Source: Verrucomicrobiaceae bacterium
GTDB lineage: Bacteria > Verrucomicrobiota > Verrucomicrobiia > Verrucomicrobiales > Akkermansiaceae
DNA: 64,000 bases
Assembly: GCA_027487435.1 (NCBI GenBank)
Contig: JAIYDP010000024.1
Span: 1 to 64,000 of the forward strand
Direction: 5' to 3'
A model generated the notes under the pieces. It had not been told where the DNA came from, made no database searches, and was given only the letters and a program-made list of their open reading frames with translations. Within the stretch, counting starts at the first letter, position 1. Each line of letters starts with the position of its first letter. The position numbers and the translations under genes were made by a program. This document shows, piece by piece, positions 5,360-38,547 of this stretch.

Positions 5360-8300
5360 ATGAAAAAGATCAATTGCGCTTTGATTTCGATGATTTCACT
5401 CGCTCCAACGGCTTCTTACGCGTGGCAGCCTGGCCCTTCTGCAGGTGCTCCGCTTACGGGTTTCACGGTCGATACATCCAATCGTGCGGATGTGCTTTCT
5501 TTTTACCACCACATTTACCAAGCATCCGAAAATCATGAGCATTTGATGCAATGGACGGGAAATCATGGTTCCTGCGCCGCGGGATCGGTCTCCGACGTTT
5601 TCGTTCAGGCCATCCAACGTCGAGTCAATTATTATCGCGCCATGGCAGGCGTTCCCGCAAACGTTATGCTGAATACGGCTAGTACCATTGTGCAGGGGGC
5701 TCCAGGATATGATGCGCCAAGTGATACCACCAAGACAACGGCTGCGCAGCGATCCGCGTTATTGATCAGTCGCAACAATCAACTCACGCACACTCCGTCA
5801 GCCAGTTCGCTATGTTTTGATGTGAGTGGGGGAAATGGAAGCTACATGGGCAACATCGCACTAGGTGTTTACGGCATGACTGCGATGAATTATTACATGG
5901 CTGAAGATGAATTCAATTTGGATGTAGGACACCGTCGTTGGCTGCTTCAGGATCGCGCCACAAACTTTGCAACTGGTGATATCCCGCCTGTAGGAGATCG
6001 CTTTGCAGCGAATTCGCTATACATGCGCCAACGCCCTGCGGAAAACGCTGTGGTTACCCCAAAATTTGTGCCATGGCCCGTTGGGTACACTCCGTGGCCA
6101 CATACCACACCTTATTGGTCCTTGAGTTATGCTGGAGCAGATTTTTCCAGCGCTTCGGTTAGCGTCACTCGCAATGGCTCGCCGGTCAGCTTGTCCATCG
6201 TCAGTCGCAAAACGGGCTTTGGTAACAACAGCATCGCTTGGAAAATGCTTGACTTTCCTCAAGTGAAAACAGACTCGTCGTATTCGGTGATTGTCTCCGG
6301 CATTGGCGGAAGCGGGGTTCCTACATCGCATAGCTATGATGTTACCTTTTTTGATCCTGCCTCCATTCCCGACGGTCCTGTGATCACGGGGGCGGCTCAA
6401 GCCACGTTCCCCGAAGAGATCTATCAATTTTCTCCTACCGCATCGGCTGATGAATATCGCTTGGAAATTGGCCAGCTTGCCAGTGCTACTTTTGAAGAAG
6501 GCGCGGAAGATGCAACCGCATCCTTGATCATCAATGGTCCAGTGACGGGATATGCCCTACGGCAAACAGACCTCAAACAAGCGGGTGCTAAGGCGTTTCG
6601 TTTGGCCTTTACCGATTCTCTGCAAACGGAGCAATGGTTTGCGATGGATCGCGTCATTGTTCCCAATTCAGCTTCTACGATCAATTATCGAATCAGAAGG
6701 GGATACATGCATACACAAACGACATTTGACGTGGATTACTCCACGGACGATGGCGCGAATTGGACAGTGTTACCCGGCTCTACACTCGTTGGGCTGAAAG
6801 ATGATTTTCCTTCCGATTCTTCCTTCTCGGCGCGTTCGATTTCGTTGCCCTCAAATTTGCTCAATCATCCTGTAAGATTCCGCTTCCGTTACTCAAAAGC
6901 GAAAAACGGATTAACATTCTTAGCGAGTCAGTTGCCGGAAGTTGGCGTTTTCGTCGATTCGATATCCTTCACCAATTGCAATACTCTATCGCAGAGAACC
7001 CAGACTCTCCTTCCTAGCTCGGCAACACAATTTCCTTTCAATGCCACAACCGCAGGTGGAACTTTGGTCAATAACGCCAACTATTTGCTGCGTGTGCAGC
7101 CACGTTTTGCTTCATCATGGTTGGGCGCTGGAAATTCGATGGTTGTATCGGCTAGCGATGGCGGTATCACGCCAAACGTGCCTCCGACTCTCAACGCCAT
7201 TGCAAATCCGCCTGCGATCAATGAAGATGCTCCTGAACAATCGATCGCATTGTCAGGGATTTCTGCAGGTGCAGGCGATGTCCAACAACTCGCTATTTCG
7301 GCAAGCAGCAGCAACAGCAGCCTGATAGCCAATCCCGTAGTGGATTATAATCCCGAGACTTCCGTGGCATCCGTGCGTTATACGCCGGTTCCTAATGCTT
7401 CTGGCACGGCGACGATCACCGTCACGGTGAATGACGGGCAATCGGAAAACAATACGGCCGCTCGCAGCTTCCTCGTTACTGTTCGTCCGGTGGACGACGC
7501 CTCGACAGTGGATGGCATAGCCAATGTGGAAATGGATGAAGACACGTTTTTCACCATGCCATTTTCGATTTCTGATATCGATAGCCCAGTCACTTCCGCA
7601 AGCTTCAAATTCGTATCGAGCAATACGGTTCTTTTGGGAAGTAGGGCGTTTTTGGTTACGGGCACCGGGGCGGACCGCACATTGCGCATCACTCCTACCC
7701 TCAATCGAAGTGGCACAGCGACTGTGACGATGACAGTCACCGTCAATCGACTTCACGTGATCCGTCAGTTCCAAGTAACCGTAGCATCAGTGAACGATGC
7801 GCCATTCATTGCAAGGCCGCCCAAACTTAGCACAATGAAAGAAGACGCGAAACTCACAGTGCTACGTATTTCCGGGATAAGCCCAGGTCTGTTAGAAACC
7901 CAGCACTTGACGATCACTGCGGAGTCTTCTGACCCAAACATTGTACCTCATCCCCAAATTACGCACGTTCCTGGAACCGCCATCGCGACAATGAGCTACA
8001 TGCCTGCTGCGAATGCCCACGGCACGGTAAATATCATGCTCAAGCTGGAAGATGGCGCATCTCTGAACAATCAGACGACCTACACCATGCCATTGGTGAT
8101 CACGCCCGTCGATGATGCTCCTATCATTTCTGCAATCGCTCCGATCAGTGTGGTAAAAGACGCTGCAATTCCCCAGGTTTCCTTTTCGGCCACCGATGTC
8201 GAGACTGCTGCGGAATCGTTGGTTTATACCCTCGCGAGCTCGAACGTTAAACTACTGCCGCTCGCAAATATCGTCCGCCAAGCAGCAGGTGGCGACAATA

Positions 8301-8413
8301 CACTGACACTGACTCCATTGCCGAACGTCACTGGCAAAGCGACAATCAGCATCAAAGTATTTGATGGAAAACATACCACGACCAGAACCTTCGTTGTTAC
8401 GGTAACTCCGTAG
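5360..8413 (+). CDS. large secreted CAP-domain protein with tandem cadherin/Ig-like repeats
   Basis: The mature protein follows a signal peptide (MKKINCALISMISLAPTASYA), so I start at residue 20 of the track ORF; total 1017 aa. Residues of about 45-230 look like an SCP/CAP domain: RRVNYYRAMAGVP, then AAQRSALLISRNNQLTH, and EDEFNLDVGHRRWLL near its end. A middle beta-rich region (about 350-600) has jelly-roll character. The last 400 residues hold three to four repeats of the tandem cadherin-like type (NEDAPEQSIALSGISAG, MDEDTFFTMPFSISDID, VTVNDGQS). It probably sits at or beyond the cell surface in adhesion or matrix binding. No catalytic role is visible and there is no C-terminal sorting tag that I recognise. 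Confidence 0.85.
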   Translation: MKKINCALISMISLAPTASYAWQPGPSAGAPLTGFTVDTSNRADVLSFYHHIYQASENHEHLMQWTGNHGSCAAGSVSDVFVQAIQRRVNYYRAMAGVPANVMLNTASTIVQGAPGYDAPSDTTKTTAAQRSALLISRNNQLTHTPSASSLCFDVSGGNGSYMGNIALGVYGMTAMNYYMAEDEFNLDVGHRRWLLQDRATNFATGDIPPVGDRFAANSLYMRQRPAENAVVTPKFVPWPVGYTPWPHTTPYWSLSYAGADFSSASVSVTRNGSPVSLSIVSRKTGFGNNSIAWKMLDFPQVKTDSSYSVIVSGIGGSGVPTSHSYDVTFFDPASIPDGPVITGAAQATFPEEIYQFSPTASADEYRLEIGQLASATFEEGAEDATASLIINGPVTGYALRQTDLKQAGAKAFRLAFTDSLQTEQWFAMDRVIVPNSASTINYRIRRGYMHTQTTFDVDYSTDDGANWTVLPGSTLVGLKDDFPSDSSFSARSISLPSNLLNHPVRFRFRYSKAKNGLTFLASQLPEVGVFVDSISFTNCNTLSQRTQTLLPSSATQFPFNATTAGGTLVNNANYLLRVQPRFASSWLGAGNSMVVSASDGGITPNVPPTLNAIANPPAINEDAPEQSIALSGISAGAGDVQQLAISASSSNSSLIANPVVDYNPETSVASVRYTPVPNASGTATITVTVNDGQSENNTAARSFLVTVRPVDDASTVDGIANVEMDEDTFFTMPFSISDIDSPVTSASFKFVSSNTVLLGSRAFLVTGTGADRTLRITPTLNRSGTATVTMTVTVNRLHVIRQFQVTVASVNDAPFIARPPKLSTMKEDAKLTVLRISGISPGLLETQHLTITAESSDPNIVPHPQITHVPGTAIATMSYMPAANAHGTVNIMLKLEDGASLNNQTTYTMPLVITPVDDAPIISAIAPISVVKDAAIPQVSFSATDVETAAESLVYTLASSNVKLLPLANIVRQAAGGDNTLTLTPLPNVTGKATISIKVFDGKHTTTRTFVVTVTP

Positions 8414-8471
8414 CCTATTGATTTTCGATTCGCTTTGACATTTGCCAAGGATCGGTATCACTTCAGCGGAG

Positions 8472-9272
8472 ATGATTCGCCCGATTTCATGGTTAGGAGT
8501 GACCACCCTGTGCTTCATTCGCTATATGGGGCAGCTCTCGCTGCTCGCACGCGACGTTGCTGAGTCGTTAGCGAAAGGCAAAATCCGTATGCGTATGGTG
8601 GTGCATCAAATCGCAGAGATCGGTTATCGATCCCAACCCGTGGTGCTGGTGACAGGGGCGTTCACGGGTGCGGTTTTGACGGCGCAATCGATGTTTCAAT
8701 TTGAAAAATTTGGCATGCAGACCATGGGCGGTGCTCTCGTGAGCGTGGCGATGTTGCGTGAGCTTGGCCCTGTCGTGACGGGATTGATGCTAGCGGGGCG
8801 CGTGGGTGCATCCATGGCCGCTGAAATCGGCACGATGAAAGTAACCGAGCAGATTGATGCGCTGCGGGTGATGAATGTGCATCCCGTCGATTACTTGGTC
8901 ACTCCCCGAATGCTGGCCATGCTGCTCGCCATTCCGTTGCTCATCGGCGAAAGCGCGGCATTGGGCATCGTGGCATCCAATCTGGTAGGAATCGAAGTTT
9001 TCGGCGTAGGCGAAGCCTATTGGAAATTTCAGATGGAAAAATATACCGACCTTACCGATGTGAGCTTCGCGTTGATCAAAGGCCTAGTTTTTGGCACCAT
9101 CATCATCGTGGTATCTTGTCATCAGGGACTCGTCGCTAGCCAAGGTGCTGCGGGTGTCGGTCGTGGAACCACTCGGGCGATGGTGTATTCCTCGTTGTTG
9201 ATTTTGATCGCCAACTTTATTTTGACCTTATTGCTGAACCAAATTTTCCCTGCGGGTCAGCAACTGGGATGA
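8472..9272 (+). CDS. mlaE: MlaE-family ABC transporter permease
   Basis: MlaE permeases form the inner-membrane part of ABC systems that move phospholipids between the membranes. The 266-aa product carries the family hallmarks: GAFTGAVLTAQS, RELGPVVTGLMLAGRVGASMAAEIGTMKVTEQIDAL and the PRMLAMLLAIPLL segment, with about five membrane helices. I prefer ATG 8472 (MIRPISW); the track's TTG at 8442 adds ten residues and neither start has a good ribosome binding site. No ATPase (mlaF), MCE protein (mlaD) or mlaC follows; prs converges from the other side 69 bp downstream. The partners must lie elsewhere in the genome or have been lost. Confidence 0.93.
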   Translation: MIRPISWLGVTTLCFIRYMGQLSLLARDVAESLAKGKIRMRMVVHQIAEIGYRSQPVVLVTGAFTGAVLTAQSMFQFEKFGMQTMGGALVSVAMLRELGPVVTGLMLAGRVGASMAAEIGTMKVTEQIDALRVMNVHPVDYLVTPRMLAMLLAIPLLIGESAALGIVASNLVGIEVFGVGEAYWKFQMEKYTDLTDVSFALIKGLVFGTIIIVVSCHQGLVASQGAAGVGRGTTRAMVYSSLLILIANFILTLLLNQIFPAGQQLG

Positions 9273-9325
9273 GTAAACCCGAGATCCGAAGTAGCGTGCG
9301 AGGCAGGCTTTGGATTTCGGGGTAA
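9269..9325 (+). pseudogene. possible 5' remnant of an mlaF-type ATPase gene
   Basis: An ATG overlapping the mlaE stop (ATGA) opens an 18-codon frame, MSKPEIRSSVRGRLWISG. ABC ATPase genes often follow mlaE with exactly this kind of overlap. The frame ends before any ATPase motif. This is only a suggestion: the frame may be chance. Confidence 0.2.
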
Positions 9326-9341
9326 AAAGAAAAGGCCTGGA

Positions 9342-10271
9342 TCAAACTTCAAACAATGAGGTGACGGACTGCCCGCCATGGATACGGCGTATGGCTTCCG
9401 CTAAGAGTGGTGCGACATCAACGGCGTGAACTTTATCGCCGTGCGCCATCGGCACGGAATTCGTTGTGATGACTTGGTCGATGACAGATTTGCTGATTCG
9501 TTCGCGTCCTAGGTCGCCGAGAACGGCATGCGAAACCCCAGCGAAGATGCGTTTCGCTCCATGACGTTGCAAAATTTCCGCCGCAGCACATAAGGTGCCT
9601 GCTGTTTCGGTCATGTCGTCACAAATCATCACGTCTTTGCCATGGACATCACCAATGACGTTCATGGCTTCCACACGAGTGGCGCTAACGCGGTGCTTGG
9701 CAACGATGGCAAGATCCGCCTTGAGGGCATCGGCATACGCGCGCGCAAGCTTTACGCCGCCGACATCGGGCGATACCACTGTGAGATTTCCATCGTCGCC
9801 TACTCCTTGCTGACGCAAGTAGTGAATGAGTGCAGGTTTGGCGTAGAGGTGATCTACCGGTATGTCAAAAAACCCTTGAATTTGCGGGGCATGCAGATCC
9901 ATGGTGATGACGCGATCAACGCCGGCCTCGGTGAGGATGTTGGCGACAAGTTTTGCGGTAATCGGCACGCGAGGCTGATCTTTGCGATCTTGGCGAGCGT
10001 AACCAAAAAAAGGCATGACAGCATTGATGCGTCCCGCGCTTGCGCGCCGTGCAGCATCCACCATGATGAGCAATTCCATGATGTTGTGATTGGTGGGCGG
10101 ACAAGTGGGCTGAATGATGTAAACATCGTCACCGCGGATGTTTTCATTGATTTTGACAAAAGTCTCACCATCGGGGAAGGCGGTGACATGAACATCGGCG
10201 AGTTCCGTTCCCAGATTGGAAGCTATATTTTTTGCCAATGTCGAATGTGCTGTCCCGGTGATAAGTTTCAT
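9342..10271 (-). CDS. prs: ribose-phosphate pyrophosphokinase (PRPP synthetase)
   Basis: Prs makes 5-phosphoribosyl diphosphate from ribose 5-phosphate and ATP, feeding purine, pyrimidine, His, Trp and NAD synthesis. The 309-aa product, the usual family length, has the ATP-binding FPDGET near the N-terminus, YARQDRKDQPR, MDLHAPQIQGFFDIPVDHL, the catalytic-loop KHR and the PRPP-binding loop CDDMTETAGTL. That loop usually reads DDMIDTAGT, so the substitutions here are mild. I start at MKLITGTAHSTL, the normal N-terminus; the track extension of 62 residues is not homologous-looking. An ATG five codons upstream (MLPQR) is also possible. Confidence 0.95.
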   Translation of the reverse strand: MKLITGTAHSTLAKNIASNLGTELADVHVTAFPDGETFVKINENIRGDDVYIIQPTCPPTNHNIMELLIMVDAARRASAGRINAVMPFFGYARQDRKDQPRVPITAKLVANILTEAGVDRVITMDLHAPQIQGFFDIPVDHLYAKPALIHYLRQQGVGDDGNLTVVSPDVGGVKLARAYADALKADLAIVAKHRVSATRVEAMNVIGDVHGKDVMICDDMTETAGTLCAAAEILQRHGAKRIFAGVSHAVLGDLGRERISKSVIDQVITTNSVPMAHGDKVHAVDVAPLLAEAIRRIHGGQSVTSLFEV

Positions 10272-10869
10272 GCGCTGGGGCAGCATGAACCGATACAAGG
10301 AAGACTGCAATGCTAGGTAACAAAAAATGTGACACGATTTGTAGCGATGGCAGATGCCTTGTTTTTCGACGTGGTTACCGCTCCAAGCCAAGCCCCCTAG
10401 AAAACATTTCACGCTGCCACGATGCGCGTCAGAAGACAGTCTTTTTCGCGACTTCATGAGGCAGGCAGGTAGTTTTTGCCGACGTCGACATCTCTAGCTG
10501 TAGTCTTCAGGGAGGTGGTGAAGAGGGGGCAATGCAAAGTGACTTACACTTTGTGTTTGTAGGGAAAGTGATGAATAAGGGAGCAAGAGAGAAGGCAGGG
10601 GGAGAGAGATTTCTGGGGGATGTTGTAATGAATGGTTGGGAAAAAGGTGGTGTTGGGGAATACAAATGCCTATTTGGGACAAAATGTCGCGGTTTTTGGG
10701 TATTTTCGCGGAAAATGGGCTTCCGCATAGCGGGAGTAGGTTTGCAGGACTGAAACACCCCAGAATTTTGTGACTCGTTATGCGCTGAGGGTGTTTATGG
10801 AATAATGAGGCAGGCAAGATGCCTGCCCTACGGAGGAGATTGGCATGGCGCTTGGAAAGTGCCGCCACG
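10272..10869. other. 598-bp intergenic stretch between prs and mutS
   Basis: The short ORFs here (for example 10532-10753 plus and 10494-10868 minus) have purine- or pyrimidine-biased, low-complexity translations and no domain, so I do not call them. The stretch presumably holds the prs promoter and the mutS 3' end. The only structured element I see is the small hairpin at 10809-10827. Confidence 0.6.
10809..10827. repeat. perfect 8-bp hairpin, REP-like
   Basis: GGCAGGCA and TGCCTGCC flank a 3-base AGA loop. The motif is followed by CTACGGAGG and no T-run, so it does not look like an intrinsic terminator on either strand. A partial cousin (GAGGCAGGCAGG) occurs near 10456. It is probably a small interspersed palindromic repeat. 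Confidence 0.45.
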
Positions 10870-13362
10870 TTAGAAAGATTCGAAGAGATCCATTTGGGGG
10901 GAGGGGGAGTGGGGCATGGCTTCTTGGGGGCGGGTGTTTTTGGGGCGGGGGCCTTGTTTTTTGGACTCGGGGCGGGTGGAGTGGAGTTCTAGGTGGCTGA
11001 GAATCGCTTTGGCGCGATCGATGACGGGCTGGGGTAGGCCAGCGAGTCGGGCGACTTGGATGCCGTAGGATTTATCGGCAGTGCCGGGGAGGATTTTGCG
11101 GAGGAAGATGATTTCTTCGTTCCATTCGCGGACGGCGACGTTGAAGTTAGCGACGGCGGCGCGGGTCTCGGTGAGGTCGGTGAGCTCGTGGTAGTGCGTG
11201 GCGAAGAGCGTGCGGCAGCGGGTGATGTCGTGGAGGTGCTCGGCGACAGCCCAGGCAATGGAGAGGCCATCGAAGGTGGCGGTGCCGCGACCGATTTCAT
11301 CGAGGATGACGAGGGAATTTTCGCTGGCGTTGTTGAGGATGAGCGCGGTTTCGTTCATTTCCACCATGAAGGTGGATTGGCCGCGCGAGAGGTCATCGGA
11401 GGCACCGACGCGGCAGAAAATGCGGTCGGTGATGCCGATGGTGGCGCTTTCGGCGGGGACGAAAGCTCCAATTTGTGCCATCAGGGTGATGAGTGCGACT
11501 TGGCGAATGTAGGTGGATTTTCCGGCCATGTTGGGGCCAGTGATGATGTGGATGAGCGCGTCTTCGGGGTGGAGCGCGGTGTCGTTTGGCACAAAGGTTT
11601 CGCTGACGAGGGTTTGTTCGAGCACAGGGTGGCGGCCATTGATGATTTCGAGGCGGCGGGAGATTTCGAGGGTGGGGCGAGTGTGGCGGAATTTTTGCGC
11701 GGTTTCGGCGAGGGAGGTGAGGGCATCGAGCGTGGCGATGGCGGCGGCGGTGCGCTGGAGCGCATCGAGGTGGTCGGCGACGTGGCGGCGGAGTTGCAGG
11801 AAGAGTTCGAGTTCGAGCTGGCGGGAGCGTTCCTCGGAGCCGAGGACTTTGTTTTCCATTTCCTTGAGGGCGGGGGTGACGTAGCGCTCGCAGTTGGCCA
11901 TGGTTTGCTTGCGGGTGTAATCGTCAGGGACCTTGGCGAGGTTGGCACTGGTGATCTCGATGAAGTAGCCGAAGACGTTGTTAAACTTGATTTTTAGGGA
12001 GTCGATGCCGCTGCGTTGGCGTTCGGTTTCTTGGAGTTTGGCGATCCAGCCTTTGCCGTCGCGGGAGATGGAGCGCAGTTCGTCGAGTTCGGGGGAGTAG
12101 CCATCGCGGATAATGCCGCCGTCTTTGAGGTTGGCGGGGACTTCCTCGGCGAGGGCATCGCGGCAGAGGGTGCAGAGCGAGGAAAAATCCTCCATGCCCT
12201 CGGTAAGGAAGGTGAGATTTTTTTCTGCGAGAGGTAGGGCGGCTAGGTGCTGGCGAAGTGCGGGTATGAGTTCGAGCGAATGCGTTAGAGCCTGGAGGTC
12301 GCGAGCATTGCCGCTGCCTTGGGCGAGGCGGCTGGTGGTGCGCTCGATATCGCGAATGCCGCGCAGGGTATCGCGCGATTGTGAGAGGAGAAATGGCTCG
12401 GCGAGCAGGGCGGCAATGATGTCTTGGCGTTGGTGGAGGAGGTCGATGTCGCGTGAGGGGTGGAGCACCCATTCGCGGAGCATGCGGGCGCCCATGGGCG
12501 TGAGGGTGCGGTCGAGCACGCCGAGCAGGGTGTGATCTTTACCCGAGCGCGAGTCGATGAGGTCAAGGTTGCGCTGCGAGGCGGCATCGATGAGCATGGT
12601 GTGAAGCGACTCGCGGACACGCAGGGCGCGGAGGTGGGAGCAATTTCTGCGAAGTTGGTGGATCAGGTAGTGGAGCGCCGCGCCAGCCGCGCCGATGGCA
12701 GCGGGGAGGTCGGCACAGCCGAAACCGTGGAGGGATTTCACGGCGAAATGGTCTTCGAGGAGTGGGCGCGCTTGGCCGGGGAGGAAGGTGTAGCCATCGT
12801 AGGCGAGGGAGTTTTTGAGTGCGCCGAAGGTAGCGGTTTGGTCTTCGGGGATGAGCAGCTCGGAGGGAAGGAGGCGAGCAAGTTCGTCTTGCAGCAGGGT
12901 CATGTCGCTGAACTCGGCGACGGTGAACTCGCCGGTGGAGTGATCGATGCAGGCGAGGCCGAGCATTTTCGACTGGAGGCAGACAGCGGCGAGGTAGTTC
13001 GGGCGTTGTTGATCGAGCAGGTTGGCGTCATCGATGGAGCCAGCGGTGAGGATGCGAGTGATTTCGCGTTCGACGAGTTTTCCTGGCTTGGGGTCGGACG
13101 TTTGTTCGGCGATGGCGACGCGCAGACCTGCTTTGAGGAGTCGGGCGATGTACGATTCTGCCGCATGCCACGGGATGCCGCACATGGGGGTGAGGTGTCG
13201 CTTGGTGAGAGCAACGTTGAGGATGGGCGCGGCGGTTTTCGCGTCCTCGAAGAACATCTCGTAAAAATCACCGAGCCGGTAGAGCAGGATGATGTCTGAG
13301 GGCAGAGTGCGACGGATGGCCTGGTATTGGGCCATCATCGGGGTTGTTTCGCTGCCGCTCAT
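10870..13362 (-). CDS. mutS: DNA mismatch repair protein MutS
   Basis: MutS recognises mispaired and unpaired bases and starts methyl-independent or MutL-dependent repair. The 830-aa product carries the mismatch-contact motif in domain I (LGDFYEMFFEDA, residues about 31-42), then the connector, lever and clamp domains. The ABC-type ATPase has Walker A GPNMAGKST (about 609-617), Walker B LVILDEIGRGT and the ATHYHEL switch histidines. The last residues, SPQMDLFESF, contain a QMDLF pentapeptide that fits the consensus for beta sliding-clamp binding. A poorly conserved basic linker (about 795-820) precedes it. It lies 59 bp downstream of fabF on the same strand. Confidence 0.97.
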   Translation of the reverse strand: MSGSETTPMMAQYQAIRRTLPSDIILLYRLGDFYEMFFEDAKTAAPILNVALTKRHLTPMCGIPWHAAESYIARLLKAGLRVAIAEQTSDPKPGKLVEREITRILTAGSIDDANLLDQQRPNYLAAVCLQSKMLGLACIDHSTGEFTVAEFSDMTLLQDELARLLPSELLIPEDQTATFGALKNSLAYDGYTFLPGQARPLLEDHFAVKSLHGFGCADLPAAIGAAGAALHYLIHQLRRNCSHLRALRVRESLHTMLIDAASQRNLDLIDSRSGKDHTLLGVLDRTLTPMGARMLREWVLHPSRDIDLLHQRQDIIAALLAEPFLLSQSRDTLRGIRDIERTTSRLAQGSGNARDLQALTHSLELIPALRQHLAALPLAEKNLTFLTEGMEDFSSLCTLCRDALAEEVPANLKDGGIIRDGYSPELDELRSISRDGKGWIAKLQETERQRSGIDSLKIKFNNVFGYFIEITSANLAKVPDDYTRKQTMANCERYVTPALKEMENKVLGSEERSRQLELELFLQLRRHVADHLDALQRTAAAIATLDALTSLAETAQKFRHTRPTLEISRRLEIINGRHPVLEQTLVSETFVPNDTALHPEDALIHIITGPNMAGKSTYIRQVALITLMAQIGAFVPAESATIGITDRIFCRVGASDDLSRGQSTFMVEMNETALILNNASENSLVILDEIGRGTATFDGLSIAWAVAEHLHDITRCRTLFATHYHELTDLTETRAAVANFNVAVREWNEEIIFLRKILPGTADKSYGIQVARLAGLPQPVIDRAKAILSHLELHSTRPESKKQGPRPKNTRPQEAMPHSPSPQMDLFESF

Positions 13363-13421
13363 GTGTCTGGGAAATGTTTAAGGAATAGAGTGAAATACAC
13401 GCAAGCAAGGGCTTCGTGAAA

Positions 13422-14669
13422 TCAGACGAAGCGACGAATCAACAAAGAAGAATTGTGCCCGCCAAAGCCAAAGCTATTCGACAGAGCGATGTCCACTTTG
13501 GCTTCGCGAGCGGTGTGGGGAACGTAGTCGAGATCGCACTCGGGGTCGGGTTGATCAAGGTTGATGGTGGGCGGGATGATATTTTCCTGCATGGCCATGA
13601 GGCAGGCCGCGATCTCGATACCGCCAGCGGCACCGAGCATGTGTCCGGTCATGGATTTTGTGGAGCTAACGATCAGCCCTTCCTTAGCATGCGAGCCGAA
13701 AGTTTTTTTGATGGCTTTTGTTTCGCAGACATCGCCAAGACCTGTGGAAGTGCCGTGTGCGTTGACGTAGTTGACTTGCTCGGGATTGATGCCGCCGTGG
13801 CGGAGGGCCATATCCATGCAACGGGCAGCGCCTTCTCCTTCCGGGTGCGGGGAGGTCATGTGATAGGCATCGGCACTGAGACCGTAGCCGATGAGCTCGG
13901 CGTAAATGCGTGCGCCGCGTTTTTTGGCGTGTTCGAGTTCTTCGATCATCAGCACGCCAGCGCCCTCGCCCATGACGAAGCCATCGCGCCCGACATCAAA
14001 GGGACGTGAAGCTTTTTCTGGTTCGTCATTGCGGGTGCTGAGAGCCTTCATGTTGCCGAAACCCGCGAGGCCGCAGGGGAGGATGGAGGCCTCGCCGCCG
14101 CCGCAAAGGAAGGCATCGGCATCGCCAAACTTGATGATGCGCCAGGCTTCGCCAATCGAATGATTGGAAGTAGCGCATGCCGTTACGATGGCCATATTTG
14201 GGCCGCCGAATCCATACTCCATGGAAACGATGCCGCTGGCGATATTGGCGATCATCATCGGGATCAGAAACGGCGAAACGCGGCCAGGCCCGCGACTGAC
14301 GAGCTTGCTGTGCTCTTCTTCCAGCGTGCCAAGGCCGCCGATGCCACTGCTGACCATCACGCCAACGCGATGCTTGTCCACGGCTTCTGGATCCAACCCA
14401 CTATCGACCAATGCCATGCGCGCCGCGGATACGGCAAATTGCACATAGCGATCAGCGCGGCGACAATCTTTCGGATTGTTGAAAAATGGCGTCGCATCGA
14501 AGTTCTTCACCTCGCCGGCGATGTGTGTGGTATAGCCAGTCGTATCCATGGAAGTGATGCGGGAAATGCCACTGCGGCCCTGTTTAAGGCCCTCCCACGT
14601 CGTGGAGAGATCGTTTCCTACGGGGCTAATGCAGCCGATGCCGGTGATGACTACGCGTCGTTCGTTCAT
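13422..14669 (-). CDS. fabF: 3-oxoacyl-ACP synthase II
   Basis: FabF condenses malonyl-ACP with a growing acyl-ACP in type II fatty acid synthesis. The 415-aa product has the full thiolase fold and catalytic triad: Cys in VTACATSNHSIGEA (about C165), His in NAHGTSTGLGD and His in SNSFGFGGHNSS. The start MNERRVVITGIG is the standard family N-terminus. acpP, which usually precedes fabF, is absent; a tRNA-Arg gene lies 31 bp upstream. No ribosome binding site is apparent. Confidence 0.96.
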   Translation of the reverse strand: MNERRVVITGIGCISPVGNDLSTTWEGLKQGRSGISRITSMDTTGYTTHIAGEVKNFDATPFFNNPKDCRRADRYVQFAVSAARMALVDSGLDPEAVDKHRVGVMVSSGIGGLGTLEEEHSKLVSRGPGRVSPFLIPMMIANIASGIVSMEYGFGGPNMAIVTACATSNHSIGEAWRIIKFGDADAFLCGGGEASILPCGLAGFGNMKALSTRNDEPEKASRPFDVGRDGFVMGEGAGVLMIEELEHAKKRGARIYAELIGYGLSADAYHMTSPHPEGEGAARCMDMALRHGGINPEQVNYVNAHGTSTGLGDVCETKAIKKTFGSHAKEGLIVSSTKSMTGHMLGAAGGIEIAACLMAMQENIIPPTINLDQPDPECDLDYVPHTAREAKVDIALSNSFGFGGHNSSLLIRRFV

Positions 14670-15809: not shown

Positions 15810-15837
15810 GGGACGGGAAATGAATTACGCTTTGGGC

Positions 15838-16140
15838 CCAAACTCCATTCAGGATGGAAAAGTCGCTAGCTTTTCGTCCCTAAATGGATTTAGGTAGGAA
15901 AAGGCACGGGGTTTGGCTCCCTAAATCGATTTAGGACGGAAAAGGCACGGGGTTTGGTTCCCTAAATGGATTTAGGAAGGAAAAGGCACGAGGTTTTGGC
16001 TCCTAAATCGATTTAGGACGGAAAAGACACGGGGTTTTGGCTCCTAAATCGATTTAGGGCGCAAAAGCCAGAAGGTTTTGCCTCCTAAAACGCGTCAGGA
16101 CGCAAAAGGACGACCCTTTTGGCTCCTAAAACGATTTTTG
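15838..16140. repeat. 41-bp tandem array with palindromic core (about 7.5 copies)
   Basis: Cores start at 15838 (degenerate), 15879, 15920, 15961, 16002, 16043, 16084 and 16125 (truncated). Every spacing is exactly 41 bp. The best core, CCTAAATCGATTTAGG, is a perfect 16-bp palindrome; two copies read CCTAAATGGATTTAGG. The linker is close to ACGGAAAAGGCACGGGGTTTGG and is also conserved, so there are no unique spacers as in CRISPR. Copies decay toward both ends. It lies between menA and the ankyrin gene with no ORF across it, and 41 bp is not a codon multiple. Together with the hairpin at 16169 it fills the 671-bp gap. Confidence 0.9.
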
Positions 16141-32805: not shown

Positions 32806-33399
32806 CTATCCCGCCCTTTCTAGAAAATCGCGATAGGAGTGATCGTCAAGATTGGTTGCCCCGCCTGCTAAGTAGTTCCGCAGCTCTTTTAGCCGCAGGA
32901 TAGGATGCTTTTCGCAAAGCTTAAAAATCTTGATTGTTTGCTTGGCGCGATGCTGGATTTCTGGAGGAGCCACTTCATTGGGCTTTAGCTCACCATTGGC
33001 GAAGTCCCATTGAAAATACTTGTCAAAAAAGTAGTCAGACGCATCCGGCTTCAAAAGAGCTTCATCAAACTGATCACCTTTCATCTGCTGACAATGGTCA
33101 CAGCAATAGAAAAGATTCGTCCACTCAAGCGCCAAATCGAGACGGCCATGCGGCCCTGACTTCGGGTGGAAATGATCGATCGTCTCCCTGCCCGGTGGGC
33201 TTATTGGAGTCATATCACAGTAGGAGCAATGTTCTTGTGTCTGATCCCTAAGACCTTGATCATTCAGGATTTGATTCAGTTTACGATTTTTGTATTGAGG
33301 CCAGTCCGTCCAGTGACCACGATTCACGAGTGAATCCGTCCAAGCTGCACCTTTGTCCTTCAAAACCTGCGGGCAATCTGCGCGTGTGAATTTTCTCAT
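32806..33399 (-). CDS. ptuB: PtuB-like HNH nuclease of a Septu-type system
   Basis: The 197-aa protein carries a CxxC zinc knuckle and HNH core: HCSYCDMTPISPPGRETIDHFHPKSG, then NLFYCCDHCQQMKGDQF. This is the layout of the HNH nuclease found beside AAA ATPases in Septu and in some retron operons. The N-terminal MRKFTRADCPQVL is also typical of that family. Its start overlaps the ptuA stop by four bases (ATGA). By family it would cut nucleic acid when released by PtuA; that has not been shown for this protein. It is the last gene of the minus-strand operon. Confidence 0.85.
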   Translation of the reverse strand: MRKFTRADCPQVLKDKGAAWTDSLVNRGHWTDWPQYKNRKLNQILNDQGLRDQTQEHCSYCDMTPISPPGRETIDHFHPKSGPHGRLDLALEWTNLFYCCDHCQQMKGDQFDEALLKPDASDYFFDKYFQWDFANGELKPNEVAPPEIQHRAKQTIKIFKLCEKHPILRLKELRNYLAGGATNLDDHSYRDFLERAG

Positions 33400-34628
33400 G
33401 CTTGATTGCGTTTGAATTCTGCCACTTGCTGTTTCTGCCGTTCGTATTGGCGTAGCTCTGCAGTGACGACTTGCTCTAGCTCCATGCCGCGACCAGCGAT
33501 TTTCTGAGCCAGCTTTCGCATCGCTTGTTCTTCATCATCTCCGCCCTTGAGTGCGGAACTCAGAAGCGTGCGGAACTCGGCCAGCAATTTCCGATTCTCT
33601 GGATCATACCAATCGCTCACCTCCAGCACACTGCTCAGTGCTGTCACATAGCTGTCGCCTTGCTCCACCATCCGGGGCTCTTCCACGGTGACCGCCCCTC
33701 CCTCGCCCACTCTTAGTCGATGAATCCAAGCATTCTCATTGAGCGAACTGACGACAAACGGTGAATGCGTGGCAACGAAAATTTGCGCTTTGGGGAAAAG
33801 CCGCTGCACCATAGGCATCACGCGCCATTGCCACTCTGGGTGCAAGTGGGTTTCTGGCTCATCCACGAGAAGGATCACAGGCTGCTCAAGAGGGTCTTCT
33901 GCATCGCGGAAGAAAACATCCATCCAAACCACGCCTTGCACCAACCAGCCAAGGATGCTGCGCAAGCCATCGGGCAAAGTGGTGATGGGAAATGGCTCAG
34001 GTGAACTCCCCCAACGCACACGTAATTCAGGCTTGGGATGAACAGTGGATGCAAAAGAAAATTTGCGTCCTGTCACTTCTTCAATCGCCGTTTCTATGGC
34101 TTTGATCATCCGGCTGTAGCGTCCTGTCAGACCTTGTCGGCTCTCAGTTGCCGCTTGCAAGTCCATCGTGAAGATCCCTTGCAGTAATCGTTGCGATTCA
34201 TCAGCGGGGCGGGAAAATGAAAGGGCTTCATCCGTAGTGGGAAGGCGAATTTCCGCATTGGCTTTTACTTCAGCAGTTTCTAGGTAGGCGCGGGGGCAGA
34301 GGGTCATCGCAAAGCAATTCAAATATTTTCTAGAAACCGGGAATAATGTCATTGGATCCCACACGCTTACGTCTCCATCTTTATCTGTAGTGTCTCCTTT
34401 GAAATACACCATATTATCGGGCTCAATATCTCTCTTCTTCGATTCCCTCCTCCCGCCCAGAGCAGCAGCTATAAGTGCCAGCAATCTCGTCTTGCCACTG
34501 CCATTTGGGCCGGTGAAAACGTGTACTTCTGCTAAATTTGGAACCTCTTCTTCAGCAAGGTGAGGGAACTCGATTTCAAATTCGCCAAACGGTGCAAATG
34601 GTTCGGCGCGCAATGCAGAAATTTTCAT
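33396..34628 (-). CDS. ptuA: PtuA-like AAA/ABC-type ATPase of a Septu-type system
   Basis: The 410-aa protein begins MKISALRAEPFAPFGEFEIEF. It has Walker A TGPNGSGKTRLLALIAAALGG (about 40-47), an inserted middle region, Walker B ILLVDEPETHLHPEWQWRVMP and the switch FVATHSPFVVSSLNENAW, the ABC/SMC-like OLD-family arrangement. PtuA oligomers control PtuB in Septu. Eight extra residues in the track ORF before MKIS are not needed. It sits 52 bp after the ROCO gene and overlaps ptuB. It could instead be the ATPase half of a retron operon, but there is no reverse transcriptase here. Confidence 0.83.
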   Translation of the reverse strand: MKISALRAEPFAPFGEFEIEFPHLAEEEVPNLAEVHVFTGPNGSGKTRLLALIAAALGGRRESKKRDIEPDNMVYFKGDTTDKDGDVSVWDPMTLFPVSRKYLNCFAMTLCPRAYLETAEVKANAEIRLPTTDEALSFSRPADESQRLLQGIFTMDLQAATESRQGLTGRYSRMIKAIETAIEEVTGRKFSFASTVHPKPELRVRWGSSPEPFPITTLPDGLRSILGWLVQGVVWMDVFFRDAEDPLEQPVILLVDEPETHLHPEWQWRVMPMVQRLFPKAQIFVATHSPFVVSSLNENAWIHRLRVGEGGAVTVEEPRMVEQGDSYVTALSSVLEVSDWYDPENRKLLAEFRTLLSSALKGGDDEEQAMRKLAQKIAGRGMELEQVVTAELRQYERQKQQVAEFKRNQA

Positions 34629-34680
34629 ACAGCCATGGCTTACGAAAATCATCGAGCGATGGCAAGGGCGAACCCCTGCA

Positions 34681-37236
34681 TCAACTTTCTTTCAACAAGC
34701 GGCGCAGCTGCTGTTCCACGGCATCGAAGGCTTGGCGGCGGCTGGGCCATTGATCCACGGCTTTGAGGTTGTTGCTGCGGTCTGCTGGCAACATTTGCAG
34801 ATGTGCGAGGGGTGAATCTTTCCATCCGCAATTTTGCCCTAACACGATCGGGATCACTAATGGGGAGCGCCACTTGATGGGTGCTTCTTTGAGACGCTCT
34901 AGAGCGCGTGCCATTTCCACCTTACGAATGTAGGTGGAGCGTAGCGATTCCGTGCTGATGAGGAAAATGATGATGTCCGCTACTTCCAGCTGGCTGCGGA
35001 TTTCTTGATCAAATTCTTGCGACGGCAGGATTTTGCCATCGTGCCATGAGTCGATCAGGCCATCCATTTCCATGACTTCTAGGTTCTGTAAGAAAACATC
35101 ACGGTGAGCAGCATCCTTGTGCGCGTAGCTCAGAAACACTTTCGGGCGCGGTGCGAGAGTAGCTCTGGCATTCTCCTGCCGCTCCTTGCCCTCAGGCGCG
35201 GCGACGCGATTGAGTTCCTGCGTCTGATCGATGCGTATGCTGCCCTGATCCGTGGGGACGGTGCTGATGGCATGATTTTTCTCATCTTTTACGAGGGTGA
35301 TGATTTTCTGATAACTGCCAGGCTGGCTTTCCAGCTCCATGTATTCCTGCGCGTCTGCCACTCCATATTTGGCATGAATGTCGCGGAAATGTGCGCGGAT
35401 CAATTTGGTAAGTCGCAGTCGCGCCGCTGCGGAGCCGATGACACTTACCTCAATGCGCTGGCGCGTGGCTTCTGCCATGACTAAGGCACGCGCCGTGCCA
35501 GAGGACTCGATGTCTTGCATCTCTACGATCACGCCATCGCGCCAGACGATGTTCTCATACACCAGCGGATGCACGCGCACGATGAAACGCGGCAGCAAGC
35601 CCTTTTGCAGCAAGTCATATTGGTAACGCAGGCGCGTGGCTGGCTGGGTGAACCATTCTTGGCCGAGAGCTTTGGGGGCTTGGCGGGACAGTTGTTGCGG
35701 GATCAACCACGTATCATCACTGCCTTCCAGTGCGTAGCAAATCTCAAAGCGTTCCATTAGGCCGATGACATAGCGCACCATGTCGATTGGGCGGCCTTCG
35801 GCATCGAGCTGCACTTTTTCCTCCGGTAGTGCCTTACGTGCTTCCTCCAAGGTCAGCTTGCCATCAAAACGTTCCGTCTGAAATTGCCGCTCCTCCACCG
35901 CACGGATCAGCCGATAGACACTCTCCGTGACCCAGCGCGGATTCAGCACCGTGGTGTCATGAAGCCGCTCATCATCGGCGTAGTGAAGGATGATGCCGAG
36001 GTGGTGCAAGATTTCCGCGAGGGAGTTTTGCTGCCCTTTCTCGCTGATCTTATGCTCCTCGCAGATGCGGCGAAATTCACAGAGCGGCAGATAGTGCTCC
36101 TTCATCCCCGCCATGCGCTCTTTCACGTCAAACCACAGTCGCGGAAACTTTACGGTGACACTCTTCATGCCACGGGCGGTTTCTAGGATCAACCTACCCA
36201 ACTCACTGATGCCAAGTCCCGTGCGGCAATCCGTTGGCAAAAAGGCGCGAATCTGGGGAAAATCCCGGCGAAGGGTGAATTCATTTACGGCAAAGGGCTT
36301 TAAGTCCCACTTATTGAGCAACACGATCACGGGCGAGTCGCCGCCAAAGGAACGGATCATGCGCAGCCAATACTCGGCATCACGATCCTGCGAATCGCTG
36401 CGGCCATCTAAGACTAAGAGATAGAGACTGCGGTGAGTCAGGAAAAATTGGTGCGTGGCATGAGTGATCTCCTGCCCGGCAAAGTCCCAGATGTGCGCCG
36501 TGATCCCGTCCTTGCGCCGCTCCAATTCCCAATCCTGAATCTGGATGCCCTGCGTTTCTTTCTCCGCCTCGTCGAAACGATTTTGGACAAGGCGCTTGCG
36601 CACGGAAGTTTTGCCAGCTTCACCCCAGCCGACGAGGATGATTTTCACTTCGTTCAGTGCCTTGGTGCCGCCAGCTTGGCGGGTAAAGTAGTAATCCAGA
36701 ATCGCACGCGGCGAGGCTGGAGCGACATTACTATTATCAACATCATCTTCCGAAGGCCCCAATACCTCCCCAGGCAAAGCCAGCCCAGAGTTGCCATGGA
36801 GGAAAAGCTTTTCCAACGCCGTTAGCTTGACGATCTCCGGCGGCAGGGTGCTCAGTTGATTTCCCCAGAGGACAAGCTCCTTGAGCGCGGTGAGCTGGCC
36901 GATCTCCGGCGGCAGGGTGCTCAGTTGATTTTCGCTGAGGTCAAGCCATTCGAGCGCGGTGAGCTTGCCGATCTCCGGCGGCAGGGCGCTCAGTTGATTT
37001 ATGCCGAGGTAAAGAGTATCGAGCTTAGTGAGCTGGCCGATTTCCGGCGGCAGGGTGCTCAGTTGATTTCCGTAGAGATCAAGCCGCGTGAGTGCAGTGA
37101 GCTTGCCGATCTCCGGCGGCAGGACGGTAAGACCTAAGGAGTCCAAACGAAGAGTTTCAACCTGCACTGCTTTCTGAGGGTACTCTTCAATCAACCTCAG
37201 TGCCTCGTCATAGGCTTTCTGCTCTCTTGCCGTCAT
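34681..37236 (-). CDS. ROCO protein: LRR-Roc GTPase-COR with C-terminal TIR domain
   Basis: The 851-aa protein has about five 23-residue leucine-rich repeats (residues 27-150, unit LPPEIGKLTALxxLxLxxNQLST). The Roc GTPase follows with P-loop GWGEAGKTS (about 203-211), DFAGQE at about 251-256 and NKWD at about 308-311. A COR region spans roughly 370-620. A TIR domain starts near 700 (KVFLSYAHKD). TIR NADases use a Glu in this helix; VEMARAL supplies one near residue 774 after STYIRK. I infer that ligand sensing by the LRRs and a GTP switch in Roc-COR control TIR activity, such as NAD cleavage. Which ligand and which product are unknown. It follows an unknown gene by 13 bp and precedes ptuA by 52 bp. 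Confidence 0.92.
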   Translation of the reverse strand: MTAREQKAYDEALRLIEEYPQKAVQVETLRLDSLGLTVLPPEIGKLTALTRLDLYGNQLSTLPPEIGQLTKLDTLYLGINQLSALPPEIGKLTALEWLDLSENQLSTLPPEIGQLTALKELVLWGNQLSTLPPEIVKLTALEKLFLHGNSGLALPGEVLGPSEDDVDNSNVAPASPRAILDYYFTRQAGGTKALNEVKIILVGWGEAGKTSVRKRLVQNRFDEAEKETQGIQIQDWELERRKDGITAHIWDFAGQEITHATHQFFLTHRSLYLLVLDGRSDSQDRDAEYWLRMIRSFGGDSPVIVLLNKWDLKPFAVNEFTLRRDFPQIRAFLPTDCRTGLGISELGRLILETARGMKSVTVKFPRLWFDVKERMAGMKEHYLPLCEFRRICEEHKISEKGQQNSLAEILHHLGIILHYADDERLHDTTVLNPRWVTESVYRLIRAVEERQFQTERFDGKLTLEEARKALPEEKVQLDAEGRPIDMVRYVIGLMERFEICYALEGSDDTWLIPQQLSRQAPKALGQEWFTQPATRLRYQYDLLQKGLLPRFIVRVHPLVYENIVWRDGVIVEMQDIESSGTARALVMAEATRQRIEVSVIGSAAARLRLTKLIRAHFRDIHAKYGVADAQEYMELESQPGSYQKIITLVKDEKNHAISTVPTDQGSIRIDQTQELNRVAAPEGKERQENARATLAPRPKVFLSYAHKDAAHRDVFLQNLEVMEMDGLIDSWHDGKILPSQEFDQEIRSQLEVADIIIFLISTESLRSTYIRKVEMARALERLKEAPIKWRSPLVIPIVLGQNCGWKDSPLAHLQMLPADRSNNLKAVDQWPSRRQAFDAVEQQLRRLLKES
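36809..37140. repeat. 69-bp coding repeats encoding the LRRs
   Basis: Within the ROCO gene the word CTCAGTTGATTT recurs at 36851, 36920, 36989 and 37058, with exactly 69-bp spacing. Adjoining GATCTCCGGCGGCAGGGTG is nearly identical between units, including third codon positions. The DNA is conserved beyond what the LRR consensus needs, which points to recent duplication or gene conversion. Confidence 0.85.
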
Positions 37237-37249
37237 CTGCCGATCCCTC

Positions 37250-38002
37250 TTAACCTTGCGGAGTTGGAGCTACAGGTTCCTCTTCGCTGCGGTCGGGGTC
37301 TTCTAGGAGGGATTGGTTGAAGTAGTCTTTGGCGCGTTCGGGGTGGCCGATGTGGTGGGCGGCGATGGTTAGGATGTTTTTGCCGAGCTGTAGTTCTAAG
37401 TCGGTGCGGGCGGCGGCGAGTGTGGCGCGGGCTTGGGCGAGTTCGCCTTTGGCATCGACTTGACCTTCGCGGGCACCATTGTAGGTGGTTTTTAGGGCGG
37501 TGAACTCGGCGAGCAAGTCGGCACCTAGGGCGGCTTGATGTTTGGCGGCGGCGGTGATGAGGCGTTCGAGCAGGGCGGGCACTTGGCCGATGCGGGCTTT
37601 GGTGACCTCGCTGATGCCGCGTGGGAAAAACTCGGCGTAGGCGGCACTTTCTTTGGCGAATTTGTCGCGGATGCGGCCTTCGCGCTGGCGAACGGTGCTG
37701 CGGATGAGTTGAAATGCTTCGCCCCTGGTGATGGTGCCGCCGATCTGCCCTGCCAAGAGCACGGTGCGGGCGGAAAGCGCTGCATCAAAGGCATCGAACG
37801 CCGCTTGGGTGGGCGCGTTCAGTGCGACGAGGTTGGCGGGAAGTGCCGGGATGGCACTGAGCTTGCCGAGGTGGTCTTCCGCAAACTGGCGGAGTTCTTC
37901 GGCACTGATTTCACGGTTGGACAGATGGTTTTCAAAGAGTCGTTCGATGGCAATCATGATTGTAATTAGCACTTCTGATGGGTCTTTGACAAGCGGAAAC
38001 AT
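37250..38002 (-). CDS. unknown 250-aa helical protein, first gene of the defence operon
   Basis: I recognise no family. From MFPLVKDPSEV the protein is alpha-helical: an N-terminal segment (IMIAIERLFENHLSNREISAEELRQFAEDHLGKL), a central helical region (EAFQLIRSTVRQREGRIRDKFAKE), then a long Ala/Leu heptad-like stretch (ALGADLLAEFTALKTTYNGAREGQVDAKGELAQARATLAAARTDLELQLGK). It has no signal peptide. The track ORF extends another 105 residues upstream through the 42-bp array as 14-residue repeats (MAFPIFGQALSRGK); I think that part is untranslated. ATG 37957 is another possible start. Its 13-bp spacing to the ROCO gene suggests it works with it, perhaps as a sensor, adaptor or structural partner. 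Confidence 0.65.
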   Translation of the reverse strand: MFPLVKDPSEVLITIMIAIERLFENHLSNREISAEELRQFAEDHLGKLSAIPALPANLVALNAPTQAAFDAFDAALSARTVLLAGQIGGTITRGEAFQLIRSTVRQREGRIRDKFAKESAAYAEFFPRGISEVTKARIGQVPALLERLITAAAKHQAALGADLLAEFTALKTTYNGAREGQVDAKGELAQARATLAAARTDLELQLGKNILTIAAHHIGHPERAKDYFNQSLLEDPDRSEEEPVAPTPQG

Positions 38003-38547
38003 CACATTTTCTACGAGTAGCTTTGCAGAAATGAAAAATACGATTCCTAAAATCGGGAATGCCATTTTCCCTTGAGAAAGTCCCTGTCCGAAAATTGGGA
38101 ATGCCATTTTCCCTTCGGAAAGTGCCAGTCCGAAAATTGGGAATACCATTTTCCCTTGGGAAAGTGCCTGTCCGAAAATTGGGAATGCCATTTTCCCTCG
38201 GGAAAGTGCCTGTCCTAAAACTGGGAATGCCACTTTCCCTCGGGAAAGTGCCAATCCGAAAATCGGGAGTGCCATTTTCCCTCGGGAAAGTGCCTGTCCT
38301 GAAATCGGGAATGCCATTTTCCCTCAGGAAAGTGCCAGTCCGAAAATTGGGAGTGCCATTTTCCCTTCGGAATGGGCTAGTCCGAAAATCGGGTGTGACT
38401 GGAGCAAACAAACACATCCATGAATTTTCAAAATACGCTGTAAAAATCATGTGATATTGTGGTCGGCGATTTTTTTCCGTTCTTTTTCCAACGATGCGAC
38501 TTTGTGACACGGACATTGTCGAAGTCGTTGCCCTTGCGGGAGATTGA
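38003..38547. other. 545-bp leader region upstream of the defence operon
   Basis: The region holds the 42-bp array and, beyond it (38400-38547), about 150 bp of unique AT-rich DNA that ends at the DUF1501 stop. The defence operon promoter is presumably in this unique part, reading leftward, which would put the array in the transcript leader. I could not find a convincing -35/-10 pair. Confidence 0.5.
38040..38398. repeat. 42-bp tandem array with palindromic core (8 copies)
   Basis: The word GGGAATGCC (or a close variant) begins at 38055, 38097, 38139, 38181, 38223, 38265, 38307 and 38349, with GGGTGTGAC at 38391. All spacings are exactly 42 bp. Each unit has a near-palindrome TTTTCCCTCGGGAAA and a second one, CCGAAAATCGG-like, joined by GTGCCTGT. 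As 42 is a codon multiple, several frames stay open on both strands (14-residue repeats), which explains the long track ORFs here. Its design resembles the 41-bp array at 15838. Confidence 0.9.

Follow-up and report, generated by a model that had tools for sequence, protein, structure and literature searches.

Three adjoining minus-strand genes, encoding a ROCO-TIR protein, a PtuA-type ATPase and a PtuB-type HNH nuclease, were found in one order and on one strand (ROCO-TIR > ptuA > ptuB) at four loci. The first of these lies in the window (the whole 64,000-nucleotide stretch of DNA analyzed here), and the others are L004 (contig JAFLEH010000022.1 of a verrucomicrobial MAG), L028 (genome G124) and L064 (genome G636). 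That these three genes alone recur in three other genomes suggests that ROCO-TIR, PtuA and PtuB probably form one antiviral unit. The features of the window locus are as follows.

37250-38002, minus strand: UNK1, 250-aa all-helical protein, judged to lie outside the system
34681-37236, minus strand: ROCO-TIR, LRR-Roc-COR-TIR protein of 851 aa
34629-34680, minus strand: intergenic region from the ROCO stop to the PtuA start, 52 bp
33396-34628, minus strand: PtuA, PtuA-type ATPase, 410 aa from the ATG at 34628
32806-33399, minus strand: PtuB, PtuB-type HNH nuclease, 197 aa
38045-38393, no strand assigned: tandem array, 42-bp unit in 8.3 copies, located upstream of UNK1

The initial annotation had reported four closely packed minus-strand genes, and its coordinates, strand and spacing were all correct: UNK1 and the ROCO gene are separated by 13 bp, the ROCO gene and ptuA by 52 bp, and ptuA runs 4 bp into ptuB. 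The mechanically called ptuA reading frame has an upstream start at 34652. Relatives align from the methionine at 34628, however, and the ATG at that position is most likely the true start, so that the 52-bp gap is retained as annotated. A scan of this gap on the minus strand, using consensus sequences only, detected no terminator-like or promoter-like site.

The proposal of a composite four-gene operon stood for ROCO-TIR, PtuA and PtuB, which do adjoin one another, and fell for UNK1. UNK1 was ruled out as a component because it belongs to a multi-copy family found at other loci of this genome and has decayed in L004, where a 37-residue C-terminal remnant remains directly in front of the ROCO gene. 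No UNK1 match was obtained from the genomes that carry L028 and L064. Members of the family are all-helical proteins of about 235-250 aa, with several copies in the window genome, and no structure matched UNK1 at E <= 0.001 in a fold search. Tandem arrays of 42-bp units, differing in unit sequence, precede UNK1-family genes in the window (37250-38393) and at L124 (1188-2211) and L127 (1384-2042). The 42-bp array of the window belongs with the UNK1 family and not with the defence genes, and the UNK1 gene together with its array resembles an independent repeated element. A second array of about 6-7 copies of a 41-bp unit is present at 15831-16137 of the window; it has the palindromic core AAATCGATTT, and no UNK1 gene was seen adjoining it.

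Domain composition and active sites

Pfam analysis of the 851-aa ROCO protein returned LRR, Roc (3e-29), COR-A (8e-32), COR-B (3e-18) and TIR_2 (3e-11) domains, with the LRR at residues about 25-160, Roc at 198-311, COR-A/COR-B at 365-662 and TIR at 698-850. The protein has the Roc GTPase domain followed by COR that defines the Roco family, with Roc, COR-A and COR-B all exceeding the Pfam cut-offs. Its Roc P-loop reads GWGEAGKT, the Roc motifs are conserved across relatives, and among solved Roco proteins CtRoco is its best match. These results bear out the LRR-Roc-COR-TIR architecture that had been read from the sequence, together with its candidate catalytic glutamate: Glu774 is invariant in 27 of 27 related TIR domains in our alignment. 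The AlphaFold model of the TIR domain has a pLDDT of 94, and its nearest solved structures are TIR domains, the first being the NAD-consuming AbTir, with the SPARTA TIRs lower down. Possessing both a TIR fold and the catalytic glutamate, the TIR end of the ROCO protein is probably an NAD-destroying domain, as predicted from the alignment and the model.

Other arrangements of these domains were observed among the relatives. At L113 (4491-7411) and L120 (5441-8166), a TIR-less Roco gene is followed or overlapped by a separate TIR gene, which represents a split version of the protein. At L114 (5101-10024), the gene after ROCO-TIR encodes a pentapeptide-repeat protein that has a TIR domain as well, and at L103 (5812-11452) two ROCO-TIR genes stand back to back in divergent orientation.

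The genes behind ROCO-TIR had been annotated as the ATPase and HNH nuclease of a Septu-like system, and PtuA (4.5e-74) and PtuB (5e-49) were indeed the best PADLOC models for them. PtuA contains Walker A (GPNGSGKT) and Walker B (ILLVDEPE) motifs, both conserved in the alignment of relatives. PtuB contains CxxC pairs, and its DHF motif (His76) and Asn95 are invariant in the alignment. The locus consequently displays the Septu combination of a PtuA ATPase with Walker A/B motifs and an adjoining HNH nuclease, PtuB, that has the catalytic His and Asn. In profile comparisons with solved structures, PtuA matched the PtuA proteins of retron I-A and Septu, and the best PDB matches of PtuA and PtuB were retron I-A PtuA and retron I-A PtuB, respectively. 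E. coli Septu requires the equivalent PtuA and PtuB motifs (PMC13096335). The nuclease target varies among Septu systems: retron-Eco7 and Septu EcB88 cut tRNA-Tyr (PMC11555353, PMC13096335), and DNA is the target given for the E. coli ATCC 25922 Septu (cited in a passage of PMC11555353).

Recurrence, spacing and history of the pairing

Searches for ROCO-TIR and PtuA covered whole genomes of the class, the order, the phylum and one family, plus one contig scan, and the gene neighbourhoods of the matches were read from the locus DNA. The pairing had been noted in this genome, and its presence at L004, L028 and L064 rules out that it is unique to the window genome, one of the outcomes by which the initial annotation would have been refuted. 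All four paired loci come from sampled genomes of Verrucomicrobiota, and they fall into two pairs. The three genes of the window match those of L004 at 57-60, 74 and 77% protein identity, and those of L028 match those of L064 at 74, 73 and 67%. Comparison of the flanks revealed no flanking gene match within either pair, and the DNA similarity between the window and L004 ceases where ptuB ends. Because only the three genes are common within each pair, they have remained a unit through the changes in their surroundings.

The order sample comprised 289 genomes, of which 13 carry the PtuA subfamily and 26 carry ROCO relatives. Chance adjacency would be expected about 2e-4 times in this sample, compared with three paired loci observed, and the expectation rises to 0.01 if both families are confined to islands making up 2% of genes. 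PtuAB accompanies 4 of about 25 ROCO-TIR genes. Within the family of G124 (68 genomes), five genomes carry the PtuA subfamily, and ROCO-TIR precedes it in two of the five. An IMG/VR scan with the PtuA profile for a phage-borne form gave seven distant matches only, and for a plasmid-borne form distant PtuA and Roco alone were detected. Around the Roco genes of two plasmids, one from Calothrix and one from Spirosoma, no gene is named PtuA or PtuB, although most of the surrounding genes are hypothetical.

Close packing had also been taken as a sign of one system. The spacing is correct, but its weight is reduced by relatives of ptuAB that lie equally close (33-95 bp) behind unrelated genes, several of them housekeeping genes. 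These comprise isocitrate dehydrogenase (L074 7313-11511), polyketide synthase (L075 1959-11493), PQQ-propeller (L067 8602-11871) and P5C reductase (L065 766-3616) genes. Another ptuAB relative follows a 471-aa protein without assigned identity, and the subfamily may settle behind any gene. Short gaps behind such unrelated genes indicate that close spacing is a habit of ptuAB and is alone no evidence of joint function. The view that the other upstream partners of this subfamily act as general sensors was rejected, as they are a mixed set that includes these housekeeping genes. At L071 (7366-13103), ptuAB lies about 45 bp behind a gene for a 1278-aa FtsK/HerA-like protein, which is possibly a further sensor or motor partner of PtuAB. 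At L068 (3502-7029), it lies behind the gene for a WD40-repeat protein that is truncated at the contig edge and is a possible sensor partner.

The ROCO tree places the two pairs in different clades amid relatives without PtuAB, and a tree constrained to group all four genes was rejected (AU p = 6.9e-5). The PtuA tree groups the four loci weakly (71/56), while the PtuB tree does not group them. As the four ROCO-TIR genes do not form one clade, either the genes were paired on two or more occasions or a single pairing was followed by several losses. Three changes on the ROCO tree suffice if the genes joined twice and the pairing was later lost in the L108/L112 branch; one old joining, which is also possible, requires more losses. 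The ROCO-TIR genes of L108 and L112 are 73-81% identical to those of L028 and L064 and lack PtuAB; conversely, PtuAB occurs without ROCO at L029, L045, L065 and L069. The L045 locus (6573-14410; G000:C424) is a second, divergent PtuAB of the window genome and stands directly behind gyrB/gyrA. Third-position GC in the window is 0.50-0.51 for ptuAB versus 0.66 for the ROCO gene; the two also differ in L028 and are alike in L004.

Eight further genomes of the genus have other genes than the window in the region behind pilT2 (in the window, downstream of 32777; L166-L173 elsewhere) and share none of them with it. A fixed insertion site was rejected given this variability, and with the downstream genes differing among the eight genomes no empty site is definable. 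The window genome (G000) is 82% complete and its 506 contigs total 9.39 Mb, compared with 2.9-4.4 Mb for its genus mates, and the assembly may be a composite MAG.

Proposed mechanism and relation to known systems

On balance we lean towards a three-gene antiviral cassette in which two abortive-infection modules are stacked in one operon. The genes would be transcribed together, the LRR part of the ROCO protein would recognise a phage or an infection signal, and the Roc-COR GTPase would switch or oligomerise the protein. The TIR domain would then destroy NAD+, and PtuAB, as an ATPase-gated HNH nuclease, would strike a second time, at tRNA or DNA. Because each module is found alone elsewhere, the two most likely act here in parallel or with loose coupling, as co-expressed effectors and not as an obligate complex.

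Direct control of PtuAB by ROCO-TIR is, by analogy, the strongest rival to stacked modules. In retron I-A, the reverse transcriptase (RT) and msDNA restrain PtuAB and gate its release (PMC11555353, PMC12887533), and the order RT > ptuA > ptuB (PMC8565338) is paralleled here by sensor > ptuA > ptuB. ROCO-TIR might accordingly replace RT-msDNA as the PtuAB inhibitor and trigger in an obligate complex, with LRR/GTPase sensing releasing PtuAB, and the retention of the three-gene unit across pairs would fit such a complex. We nevertheless consider it unlikely: the close ROCO-TIR kin at L108 and L112 lack PtuAB, the PtuAB subfamily occurs without ROCO at L029, L065 and L069, and ROCO-TIR already has an effector domain of its own. 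A Roco GTPase that senses infection, has direct control of PtuAB and triggers an NADase of its own would constitute a third Septu type, in which one infection signal releases two different killing activities; we put this forward tentatively.

Energy coupling would require no contact between the effectors, as NAD+ loss through the TIR domain would lower ATP, lift the ATP inhibition of PtuA and cause the two to fire sequentially. The intact TIR glutamate and a TIR fold near NADases are consistent with this, and Li and colleagues reportedly observed in 2024 that ATP inhibits E. coli PtuA. However, the sequence demands nothing of the sort and ATP inhibition in this PtuA subfamily is only presumed, which leaves the scheme doubtful. 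Least probable is that a mobile ptuAB pair landed behind ROCO-TIR genes by accident and is merely read through, as the short gaps behind the isocitrate dehydrogenase, polyketide synthase, P5C reductase and PQQ genes and the unlike GC of ptuAB and ROCO in the window and L028 would allow, since both pairs keep the three-gene unit though all flanks changed and the chance expectation is far below one.

The stacked cassette that we favour resembles several known systems in part. Its LRR-Roc-COR body is that of CtRoco from Chlorobaculum tepidum (PDB 3dpu, 6hlu, 8r4b). The CtRoco match stops before the TIR domain of the window protein. We know of no link between CtRoco and Septu. Human LRRK2 is also a member of the Roco family. 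Very little is known of bacterial and archaeal Roco function (2019 review, PMC6337361), and the compactness of the three-gene cassette, together with a nuclease readout that is well studied, would open it to direct testing. LRR-Roc-COR (AP-GTPase) proteins with a C-terminal TIR, the same architecture as the window protein, have been predicted to be counter-invader conflict proteins (Kaur et al. 2021, PMC8195603). The portions of that article available to us name no PtuAB partner for them, whereas the window ROCO-TIR has one. The window TIR scores against a ThsB model; Thoeris was rejected, as Pfam and PADLOC found no ThsA or other TIR-product receptor among the scanned neighbours.

Hachiman and AVAST have recurrently acquired nuclease-protease pairs (PMC12799240), which are likewise effector pairs repeatedly joined to unrelated immune systems, although the window proteins differ and proteolytic activation is inapplicable. 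The initial annotation had suggested that a pairing of ROCO with Septu may be undescribed, and in agreement our literature search gave no paper with both 'Septu' and 'Roco'; most subscription papers lay outside its scope, hence novelty is unproven. The LRR-Roc-COR-TIR protein is thus already known as a predicted conflict protein, and its pairing with PtuAB would be the new variant.

The Septu classes in the PADLOC paper are PtuAB alone and RT with PtuAB (PMC8565338). Like Septu type I (PtuA + PtuB), the window pairs an ATPase bearing Walker motifs with a nuclease bearing HNH motifs; it differs in the ROCO-TIR gene before ptuAB, kept with ptuAB across relocated loci. Membership in retron I-A was rejected, as Pfam and PADLOC scans of flanking proteins detected no reverse transcriptase. 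Rfam matched two tRNAs only in the window and no msr-msd RNA, although it lacks some msr-msd forms. Septu type II/retron I-A (RT + PtuA + PtuB) is likewise a three-gene unit of PtuAB and an extra upstream gene, but the window has in that position a GTPase that itself carries a TIR effector. The cassette would therefore add a GTPase sensor to the PtuAB-associated modules, of which the retron reverse transcriptase is described.
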